Below, one piece after another: positions 850 through 43,402 of a stretch of DNA of 54,361 bases. Both the position numbers and the translations under genes were made by a program. A model generated the notes under the pieces. That model saw nothing but the letters and a program-made list of their open reading frames with translations. It was not told where the DNA came from and did not search any database. Numbering within the stretch: position 1 is the stretch's first letter; every line of letters starts with the position of its first letter. The stretch covers positions 1 to 54,361 of the forward strand of contig JAMCUH010000005.1 of the NCBI GenBank assembly GCA_023379435.1, given 5' to 3'. This DNA is from Thermoplasmatota archaeon (GTDB taxonomy: Archaea > Thermoplasmatota > Thermoplasmata > Thermoplasmatales > Thermoplasmataceae).

Positions 850-983
850 AAAAAAATAAAAACTTAGAAGTTAATAAACCTTCTGAGGATTTCTAATAAC
901 ACATTTCCACGTAATCACTGACCCACGTTGGGCTATGGCTGTTATGAAATAAACATTTATTCATGGGATAGCCATGTTACTGC

Positions 984-1127
984 ATGAGCAGTCTTCTTGA
1001 TGAAGCACTTAAGGAAAAATACAGGACAAATGCAATCAGTGATCCACTTGCATTCGCAAAATATGCAATCGATTGGATTGCCTTTCCTCCACTTCTTAAG
1101 GATATGTACCGCAATACATCAACTTAA
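984..1127 (+). pseudogene. N-terminal remnant of an IS5-like transposase
   Basis: This 47-codon ORF is too short for the track. Its product resembles the first helical domain of IS5/IS1182-type transposases: a short leader, then DPLAFAKYAIDW and PPLLKDMY, the place where such proteins continue into a GGRP-like motif. Here a TAA ends the frame before that motif and nothing downstream continues it. An imperfect inverted repeat (GGCTAT ... ATAGCC, about 931-975) lies just upstream and may be part of the old element end. It sits next to the 3' end of tRNA-Val. The family call is from memory of the motif, so it is tentative. Confidence 0.45.
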
Positions 1128-1185
1128 TTAAATAATCGACTCTGTACCTGGCTTCCTGAAAAGAGGATTTACTTACATTTTTAAA

Positions 1186-1258
1186 TGGGCTTGGCCGGAT
1201 TCGAACCGGCGATCCCCGCTGTGTGAGAGCGATGTCGTGACCACTGGACTACAAGCCC
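1186..1258 (-). tRNA. tRNA-Val (CAC)
   Basis: The minus strand folds as a complete cloverleaf: acceptor GGGCTTG/CAAGCCC with discriminator A, T arm GCCGG-TTCGAAT-CCGGC, and anticodon arm TCGCT-CTCACAC-AGCGG with anticodon CAC, which reads GUG valine codons. CCA is not encoded and I see no intron. Confidence 0.95.
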
Positions 1259-1275
1259 TCGTTGGTTAGCGCAAG

Positions 1276-1288
1276 CTCATATAATAAG
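1276..1288 (-). promoter_or_regulatory. TATA-like box of tRNA-Val
   Basis: On the minus strand this reads CTTATTATATGAG, centred about 24 bases before the first tRNA base, the usual spacing for an archaeal TATA box. Confidence 0.6.
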
Positions 1289-1363
1289 AATATTTTTACC
1301 AGACCAGTTCCTGGTAACTAAAATAATAACTATTTTTATTTGAGATAGACATGCAGCAGATGC

Positions 1364-1978
1364 ATGCATACAAGGATCGAATATGATGCGACCATATCTG
1401 TTACAAGAAAGGACTGCCTTGTCACAGAAAAAGTTTTTCAATATGATAAGGAAGCCAAGATCCAGAGGATGAAGATATCATCGGATAGGACTATTCACAG
1501 GGTAACGTTTAAAAAAGACAGGGAAGAGATAATACCGGAACTTCAGAGGGAAGGGATATTGGTGGAAAGAATAGAAGGAGATTCTGTCTGGGCCACAGCC
1601 CCATCATGTTCATCGTGCACCTTTTTTTCAAGAAAGGATGTTTCAATTCTTGGAACAAGATCTGTCAACTCGCATACAGTTTCCTACAGGATAAGAGCAA
1701 ATTCCATTATAAAAATAAAGAATATTGAAAAGGAACTGGCTGCGATGGACATGAATCCATTCGTTTCAGATCTTTACGAGTCCATTAAGACAGACCTCAC
1801 TGAACGCGAGAGAGTTGCACTTGAAACCTGCTACAAGGAAGGCTTCTTTGATCAAAATAGGAAGAAAAACCTTTCAGAAATATCAAAAATACTTGGAATA
1901 TCGCCAGCATCCATGTCAGAACTTCTCAGACGCGCAATGAAAAAAGTTCTGGCAGAGTACCTTAACGATCTGGAATGA
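1364..1978 (+). CDS. Bat-type HTH transcriptional regulator
   Basis: Predicted DNA-binding regulator of 204 residues. The C-terminal 60 residues match the HTH_10 (bacterio-opsin activator, Bat) domain: LTERERVALETCYKEGFFD, then SEISKILGISPASMSELLRRA as the helix-turn-helix. The N-terminal 130 residues form a ligand- or signal-sensing region without PAS or GAF motifs that I can recognise. It contains an SCSSC cysteine cluster near residue 84 that could bind a metal or sense redox state (inference). The stop codon touches the end of the convergent nrdJ gene. An out-of-frame ATG lies 13 bases upstream; the chosen start gives the longest frame. Target genes unknown. Confidence 0.85.
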   Translation: MHTRIEYDATISVTRKDCLVTEKVFQYDKEAKIQRMKISSDRTIHRVTFKKDREEIIPELQREGILVERIEGDSVWATAPSCSSCTFFSRKDVSILGTRSVNSHTVSYRIRANSIIKIKNIEKELAAMDMNPFVSDLYESIKTDLTERERVALETCYKEGFFDQNRKKNLSEISKILGISPASMSELLRRAMKKVLAEYLNDLE

Positions 1979-9483: not shown

Positions 9484-9596
9484 ATCACGCAGCAATTCGT
9501 TGACGCTTATTTAACCCTGTGTTCCATGAAAGTGTACCTCTTTGTATCAAGTCAGATCTGTCTCAAATACGTATACAGGAAAAAAGGATGAAAGAA

Positions 9597-10556
9597 CTAT
9601 CTGGCAAGCTTCCAGTCGGTTTTCTTCACGTACCTTCCAGTATTTCCCATGACGTAATTGTAGGCAGAAAGTGCGGCAGTGGCTCCCATTCCTGCTGAAA
9701 TGACAGCCTGCTTGTACGGAATCTGCGTGACATCACCGCATGCAAAGACACCAGGCATGGATGTGTTACAGTTCATATCCACGATTATCTCCTTTTCATC
9801 GTTGAGTTTAACAAGATTGGCAACAATATCGCTTCTTGAAACATATCCCATTTCCACGAAGAGTGCGTTTGTTCTTATCTCATCCATTTTCTTTTCGGAA
9901 TCTGATATGACGACACTGTTCAGTGTTTCGTCACCCCTAATCTCGGTCACTGACTTTGCATTGAGAATTTCAACGTTCCTCATTGATCTTACAGAATCTA
10001 TTGATTCCTTTTCTCCCCTGAGTTCTTTTGCAGGAGAGATGAAGGTGACATGGGATGCTACGTTTCCAAGGTATATGGCAGATTGTATGGCATGGTCACC
10101 AATCCCGGTCAGAGCAACATCCTTTCCCTTATAGAGAGGGCCATCACATATTGAGCAATATGACACGCCTCTACCTTTGAATTCCTGTTCACCTTTAACA
10201 CCCAGGTCTCTCGGCGTCTTGCCAAATGCAAGTATGACACTTCTTGAATTAAATTCTCCTGTCACGGTTCTTACATTAAAGACACCGTCATTCCTGCTGA
10301 CACTGGTGACCTCATCATACTGGAATTCTGCTCCGTAATCCTGAGCCTGTTCCTGGAACTTCACCATAAGTTCAAAACCCCCTATATCTTTGAACCCTGG
10401 ATAATTCTGAATCCTATCGGTTAGAAGTGCCTGACCGCCGATATCTTTTGTGATGACCAGTGTCTTAAGGTTCTGTCTCGACGTATACAAGGCCGCTGTT
10501 AGACCTGCAGACGCACCACCAACAATGATCACATCATATAATGTTTTATCAGCCAT
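9597..10556 (-). CDS. trxB: Thioredoxin-disulfide reductase, non-NADPH type
   Basis: Flavoprotein that reduces thioredoxin. 319 residues: FAD motif IVGGASAGLTA (11-21), redox-active CSIC (Cys134/Cys137) and the C-terminal FAD motif ACGDVTQ. The NADPH-binding part is altered: the usual GGGDSA is GIGDHA (151-156), and the usual HRR that contacts the 2'-phosphate is replaced by SPAKEL. The T. acidophilum enzyme has the same sort of loss and is known not to use NADPH or NADH, so the physiological donor here is probably something else (inference). The start overlaps the end of the trx gene by 8 bases, so the two are translationally coupled. Confidence 0.95.
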   Translation of the reverse strand: MADKTLYDVIIVGGASAGLTAALYTSRQNLKTLVITKDIGGQALLTDRIQNYPGFKDIGGFELMVKFQEQAQDYGAEFQYDEVTSVSRNDGVFNVRTVTGEFNSRSVILAFGKTPRDLGVKGEQEFKGRGVSYCSICDGPLYKGKDVALTGIGDHAIQSAIYLGNVASHVTFISPAKELRGEKESIDSVRSMRNVEILNAKSVTEIRGDETLNSVVISDSEKKMDEIRTNALFVEMGYVSRSDIVANLVKLNDEKEIIVDMNCNTSMPGVFACGDVTQIPYKQAVISAGMGATAALSAYNYVMGNTGRYVKKTDWKLAR

Positions 10557-25799: not shown

Positions 25800-26971
25800 T
25801 CATATTTTCAAACGTTCAACCTCAAGTGCATCCCAGGTCGGATATTCCTCAACCTCGTACATCTCGTAATTCACCTTCTTTTTTAAATCAGGAAGTATCC
25901 ACGGTGGTACCTCTAACCTTTTCCTTGGGATGTTCATATGGATCATCTCTTCCTTCAGACCGACAGATAGCAACCTGCTCTTTGCCTCATATACATTGTC
26001 AACCTCTATTATTCCTCTTATTATGGTACCATCCTTGGTGACAACATCGATGGGTCTTGCTATGTTTCTTGCCCTTCTCTTAAGTCTGTTCTTCAGCTGA
26101 ACAGAGTCCTTGAATCTTGCTGAACAATAATGAACAGGAAATTCAGAGTATTCTCTTACCATTTCTATTGCCATCTCGGCACTCCCCTTCGCTCCAGATT
26201 CAACATCATTCTTGATGGTGAACCCTCTTCCCAGGAGATTCATTGAATTTGTCTCAGAGAATTCAAGCTCATTGATATTTATGAAATCCAGATCCATTCT
26301 TCTGCAGAAATCAATGAGCTCCCTCATCTGTCTATCCATACCCGGAATAGCGGGTACCTCTATTCCCACATCCAATTATTTATGAAATCCAGATCCATTC
26401 TTCTGCAGAAATCAATGAGCTCCCTCATCTGTCTATCCATACCCGGAATAGCGGGTACCTCTATTCCCACATCCATTCCAGCCTCCCTGGCTGCCTTGAT
26501 CCTCCAGACAAATGCAGATCGATCCATTCTGTCCCACAGTTCCTCCGGAGCGTGGAAGCGTATCTCGTCTAGTCCGGCTTTTGCCACAGCGTCGATGGAC
26601 TTCCTAGTACCGCTAATCGTGTATAGATGGATATGATGACTCTCGCCGAATTCTCCCTTAAGCATTCGGATGTATTCTGAGGTTCTGTCATAGTATTTTA
26701 GAGGGTCTCCTCCCGTTATTCCAGTTCCCATGGCATCGACCATTCTCGCCTCAAGGATGGCATCATGCATTTCATGGAGAGGCATCTCGTCAGCATACAT
26801 TACATCCTTCATCTTCTTCGGATCAGAGATTGGGCAGTAGAAGCACTTTGCATCGCAAATGCCAGACACGAAGAGAACCATCTTTCCTCCTTTTGCGCAC
26901 TGAACGCATCCGGGTGAAAGTCTCCCCACATAAGCTGATCCTCCTGGAAGTCTCTTCATATGGTAGATCAT
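25800..26971 (-). pseudogene. Radical-SAM protein (COG2108-like), broken by a 101-bp duplication
   Basis: Two track ORFs (26971-26360 and 26375-25800) are the halves of one gene. A 99-base segment is repeated directly with a 101-base offset (26276-26374 and 26377-26475), which shifts the frame. Removing 101 bases restores an open frame of 1071 bases (356 residues). The restored protein has an N-terminal GCVQC pair, the radical-SAM cluster CDAKCFYC (Cys39/43/46), GTGITGGDPL, and a C-terminal part containing YCSARFKDSVQLKNRLKRRA. This matches uncharacterised archaeal radical-SAM proteins related to pyruvate-formate-lyase activating enzymes. It follows a winged-helix gene and purB on the same strand. 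Both copies of the repeat are identical, so the event is recent, or an assembly artefact. Confidence 0.88.
26276..26475. repeat. Perfect 99-bp direct repeat (tandem duplication)
   Basis: Copy 1 is 26276-26374 and copy 2 is 26377-26475, separated by two bases (AT). I compared them base by base and found no mismatch. The 101-base period is not a multiple of three, so it destroys the radical-SAM reading frame; losing one copy would restore it. Confidence 0.95.
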
Positions 26972-42922: not shown

Positions 42923-43402
42923 CTACACCTGAACAATCTTAGAAACAAAGCTGCACTTTGGAAGTATTATGCTTTTTTTCAGTTCCTTGGGTATCCTGAG
43001 TTCATCAATGTCAACAAAACCATGTATCTTGCTCTCCACGGTCTGATCATCAATGTCAGTCAGCGTGAGAACTTTGATATTCCTGAATGAAACCTTTCTT
43101 GAGAATTCCTTTATCTCTTCCCCTTTAAGTGTAAGTTCGTCTATGTTAGCAATTATCTGAAGGTTTGAATTCCTCGCACCTTCAACGAAATTCTTTGATA
43201 TGTTCACTGCACCATCCATGGTACTTGAAAGTAATCTATAAGCATCATTGGTAACCTCACCTATGGTTTGCCCCATCTCCTTGGCTAGGGCATTTATCCT
43301 CCTATAGAGATCCTTGCGAACTCCCTTGATGGAGACAGATTTTTCCTCTTTCTTGTTTTCATCTTCATTTTTATCATTCTTATTCTCATCATTCTCTGAC
43401 AT
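42923..43402 (-). CDS. Hypothetical protein with charged N-terminus and ribbon-helix-helix-like segment
   Basis: 159 residues from ATG 43402; the track's earlier start (43456) precedes a TATA-like TTTAATAG that lies about 26 bases before this ATG. An extremely charged N-terminus (Asn/Asp/Glu/Lys for about 25 residues) is followed by VSIKGVRKDLYRRINALAKEMGQTIGEVTNDAYRLL, which looks like a ribbon-helix-helix DNA-binding unit (strand, two helices). The C-terminal part is strand-rich (NLQIIANIDELTLKGEEI) and of unknown fold. Possibly a DNA-binding regulator; low certainty. Confidence 0.65.
   Translation of the reverse strand: MSENDENKNDKNEDENKKEEKSVSIKGVRKDLYRRINALAKEMGQTIGEVTNDAYRLLSSTMDGAVNISKNFVEGARNSNLQIIANIDELTLKGEEIKEFSRKVSFRNIKVLTLTDIDDQTVESKIHGFVDIDELRIPKELKKSIILPKCSFVSKIVQV

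Follow-up and report, generated by a model that had tools for sequence, protein, structure and literature searches.

Assembly artefact as the probable origin of a tandem duplication that splits a radical-SAM gene in a Thermoplasmata-type metagenome bin

The tandem duplication that splits a radical-SAM gene in contig C5 of a Thermoplasmata-type metagenome bin is most probably an assembly artefact, and the organism probably has an intact gene with one copy of the repeated unit. The window is this contig, of 54,361 nucleotides. An artefact is favoured because repeats with the signature of the window repeat turn up again in the bin, essential ribosomal genes among their sites, whereas a matching quantity of DNA from relatives has none. 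The preliminary description of this region had offered a reversible switch, a strain-specific loss and an assembly error as possible explanations; the bin-wide signature favours the last of these, while a dedicated switch finds no support.

The repeat and the gene that it splits

The window contains an exact direct repeat of 99 nucleotides (26276-26374 and 26377-26475, 101 bases from start to start), which is far above chance and occurs twice without mismatch, as first described. When the sequence is compared with itself at period 101, the best unit extends to 101 bases with a single mismatch, 26375 A against 26476 T, located two bases to the left of the join (Table 1). The repeat can be described either as a 101-base unit with one substitution at the join or as 99 bases followed by a 2-base filler; the identity over 99 bases stands, the longer unit with its one mismatch being the fuller description. 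The mismatch is non-synonymous (ATG/TTG), and the join between the copies carries no Ns. No microhomology arms were found at the repeat ends, the period-101 self-match being no longer than the unit and including one mismatch, and a microhomology-driven duplication was ruled out for lack of such arms. Elsewhere in the window, a short imperfect tandem repeat with a unit of ~15 bases in 4 copies lies at 43340-43395, and positions 952-1114 are ~86% like stretches of contigs C58 and C13 (L100 and L106), possibly as a dispersed repeat or mobile element.

The proposal that the 101-base offset shifts the frame was borne out: the N-terminal ORF goes out of frame past its copy of the repeat, and the repeated ~33 residues occur in each of the two minus-strand ORFs. 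Removal of one copy restores, by calculation, a single frame of 356 codons, in agreement with the earlier figure, and the relatives mostly have 352-356 aligned amino acids. Motif and domain place the predicted product in the radical-SAM superfamily. The CX3CX2C motif is present as CDAKCFYC, CDARCFYC, CNFKCFYC or CNFRCFYC across the 29 relatives checked, and the N-terminal part matches the Radical_SAM domain of Pfam. NCBIfam equivalogs match this part only weakly, and a comparison of the N-terminal half with solved structures gave no match.

Table 1. Features of the split gene and its repeat in the window, and further tandem repeats in the bin
Feature	Location (in the window unless a stretch is named)	Strand	Basis or remark
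N-terminal part of radical-SAM protein (CDAKCFYC), 203 aa	26971-26360	-	PF04055 E 1.1e-11; translation
C-terminal part of the same protein, 191 aa (191 open codons)	26375-25800	-	tblastn to relatives' loci; alignment
Copy 1 of 101-base unit	26276..26376	.	99 bases same as copy 2; mismatch at 26375
Copy 2 of 101-base unit	26377..26477	.	period-101 self-comparison
Join of copies; two contig ends, probably joined falsely	26375..26378	.	inferred from bin-wide pattern
uL4 repeat, 76 bases	L035 (G000 C3) 9525-9678		frameshift
uL2 repeat, 84 bases	L035 (G000 C3) 10277-10446		28 residues in frame
239-base repeat	L075 (G000 C33) 869-1346		end of preceding gene and start of ABC ATPase gene
117-base repeat	L075 (G000 C33) 1559-1789		in ABC ATPase
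88-base repeat	L074 15852		PadR-type regulator, frameshift
204-base repeat	L048 14138		cyclase, in frame
297-base repeat	L036 12235		start of Orc1/Cdc6 gene

At each of the 40 loci compared in relatives, the two halves align in the same frame, overlapping over a single copy of the repeat; stops between the halves numbered zero in the forward-strand loci, where they were counted, and the reverse-strand loci were checked for frame. Single open frames of 324-464 aa were listed for the loci returned in the genome search of relatives, and an internal TGA flagged in one genome (G003) falls outside the 352-residue aligned frame. Relatives carrying the halves as separate intact genes, a check proposed in the preliminary description, were looked for among these 40 loci and not found, which rules out that arrangement. 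Because the relatives compared are all single-copy and single-frame, the two-copy state is either derived or not real.

It is vanishingly unlikely that the two frames are separate working proteins forming a split enzyme, or that they are read as one by translational frameshifting at their overlap. The frames do share an overlap of 16 bases, and a possible TTG start opens the second, but the two pieces have 33 residues from the middle of the radical-SAM core in common, and the frame is continuous in every relative compared, the two-frame arrangement having been sought there and not found. For the frameshift, moreover, no slippery sequence is evident on reading the overlap.

Of 61 genomes searched from the same order, 32 have the gene and 29 have no match, and at the genus level 16 of the 30 genera searched have a match and 14 do not. 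Given this patchy presence, the gene looks dispensable. The same-genus copy (60%) is less similar than copies from other genera (up to 72%), and all eleven related loci from named records belong to Thermoplasmata/Thermoplasmatota bins. Its neighbours in the window are ordinary, namely a diphthamide synthase (PF01902) and an adenylosuccinate-lyase-like gene.

Similar repeats across the bin

The bin is fragmented, consisting of 59 contigs totalling 1.15 Mb, with a completeness of 68.7%, and 1.03 Mb of it was read as stretches. Searching for near-exact tandem pairs with a period of 40-400, we detected seven repeats of 76-239 bases, the window repeat among them, across 1.02 Mb of the bin. The 1.01 Mb sampled from six relatives, of which four are single-contig genomes, contained none (two-sided p 0.016); the control from other fragmented bins (G001 and G036) amounts to only about 210 kb. 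An eighth tandem repeat, with a period of 297, adds to the seven of the census. Two pairs of the repeats are separated by less than 0.9 kb (p 0.0009). In the ABC ATPase, the 117-base repeat doubles 39 residues that include the LSMGE signature, an insertion that this gene, like uL4 and uL2, should not tolerate.

Two of the repeats fall in ribosomal protein genes. The frameshift in uL4 (TIGR03672) leaves one part matching profile positions 2-202 and another matching 175-249 of 251; no second uL4 was found in the bin, and each of 34 relatives has one match without an internal stop. The uL2 repeat lies 0.7 kb away in the same ribosomal operon and gives a frame of 260 residues, compared with 231-242 in relatives. 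If real, the uL4 frameshift and the uL2 insertion should be lethal. It is not credible that a living cell carries a frameshifted uL4 as its only one next to a uL2 lengthened by 28 residues, and both repeats are probably false tandem duplications.

The differences between copies are also informative. In the three in-gene cases where codons were comparable (uL4, uL2 and the cyclase), all eight codon differences are synonymous, compared with the 19-28% expected for random changes. Judged from the codons, such all-synonymous differences look like two functional strain alleles rather than copies within a broken gene. In three of the eight cases (the window, the period of 117 in L075 and the period of 88 in L074), mismatches are no more than 4 bases from the join, as would be expected of error-prone contig tips.

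These results bear on whether the radical-SAM gene, as a dispensable one, was broken in the sampled population by a real and recent tandem duplication (101 bases, or 99 plus a 2-base filler). Such a repeat would be unstable, with no dedicated mechanism. Direct repeats of ~100 bases form and revert, and slippage or recombination could remove the duplication again. The apparent dispensability of the gene, without a match in nearly half of the genomes and genera searched, and the otherwise undecayed state of both halves are consistent with this possibility. We nevertheless consider it unlikely, given the like signature in uL4 and uL2, genes in which a true duplication should be fatal, the excess of repeats in the bin over relatives, their clustering and the absence of microhomology at the join.

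A reversible on/off switch, with cells alternating between one and two copies and between an intact and a broken enzyme, is very unlikely. The precision of the 101-base repeat and the single 356-codon frame of the one-copy state would suit it. Reversible microhomology-mediated tandem duplications are known from fission yeast (reviewed in PMC13207564), and the window repeat resembles them as a short in-gene tandem duplication that breaks the frame and could revert. It differs from them in having no microhomology arms, in that all the relatives compared are single-copy and none has the repeat, and in that its signature also strikes essential genes, which cannot be switched off.

It could also be suggested that short tandem duplications arise unusually often in this lineage, ribosomal protein genes included, quick reversion making them tolerable. 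If so, many genes would flicker between one and two copies; we regard this as extremely unlikely.

State of the assembly and proposed origin of the duplication

At ten contig-end pairs of the bin, the overlap is exactly 127 bases, the apparent mark of a de Bruijn assembler with a k of ~127. Five further contig-end pairs overlap inexactly, with 97.9-99.2% identity over 176-478 bases; the head of C5, for instance, overlaps that of C33 over 176 bases with 2 mismatches, and in the four inexact overlaps that were dissected exact runs never exceed 127 bases. Strain-variant overlaps therefore stayed unmerged in this bin. A fixed assembler k as the origin of the 99-base length was ruled out, given the apparent k of 127 and the varying lengths of the repeats. 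Two gaps of 10 Ns remain in the stretches read; no obvious shared repeat was found in their flanks, and neither looks like a duplicated overlap. At the start of contig C48 (L090, positions 1-560), a repeat of ~28-30 bases (GTTTCAAAAGTACTAGTTAGTATGGCAG) recurs every ~67-72 bases in a CRISPR-array-like arrangement.

In a strain-mixed metagenome of this kind, two neighbouring contigs may have shared an end overlap of ~101 bases, with one base differing near a tip. During scaffolding or gap closing, these ends would have been set end to end instead of being merged, and the overlap would thereby have been written twice, producing an apparent tandem repeat. End-to-end joining of overlapping neighbouring contigs, whether strain-variant or error-tipped, is the simplest account of all eight repeats; that the window join arose like the others, and the software step responsible, we infer from the bin-wide pattern. 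The identity of the copies had previously been taken to mean a very recent event, a conclusion that fails if they are two contig ends that overlap.

Comparable errors have been described. Duplicate sequence remains where scaffolding has missed overlapping flanks (Chen et al. 2020, Accurate and complete genomes from metagenomes, PMC7111523), and there, as proposed for the window, sequence shared by the flanks is written twice when the overlap goes unrecognized; the difference is that Ns separate the copies in those cases, whereas the window copies are joined directly, with a few unmatched bases at most. In vertebrate assemblies, false duplications arise from haplotype differences and are connected by incorrect gap filling (PMC9516828). 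Allelic differences likewise make an overlap appear twice there, with false exon gains in genes, although those are large vertebrate assemblies, whereas the present case concerns short units from the metagenome bin of an archaeon.

Some observations weigh against an artefact. Scaffolders normally insert Ns at joins, and the window join has none; nor does either of the two 10-N gaps resemble a duplicated overlap. At 99 bases, the repeat falls below the apparent k of 127, and if reads spanned it, a true repeat of this length could be resolved by a graph with k 127. The window mismatch, finally, changes the residue, unlike the eight differences in uL4, uL2 and the cyclase.

These results carry a warning for the interpretation of this bin, whose apparent frameshifts, pseudogenes and in-frame insertions should not be taken as biology without reads. 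The two-part check applied here, asking whether essential genes are struck and whether the differences between copies are synonymous, can be used on other bins for which no reads are at hand.
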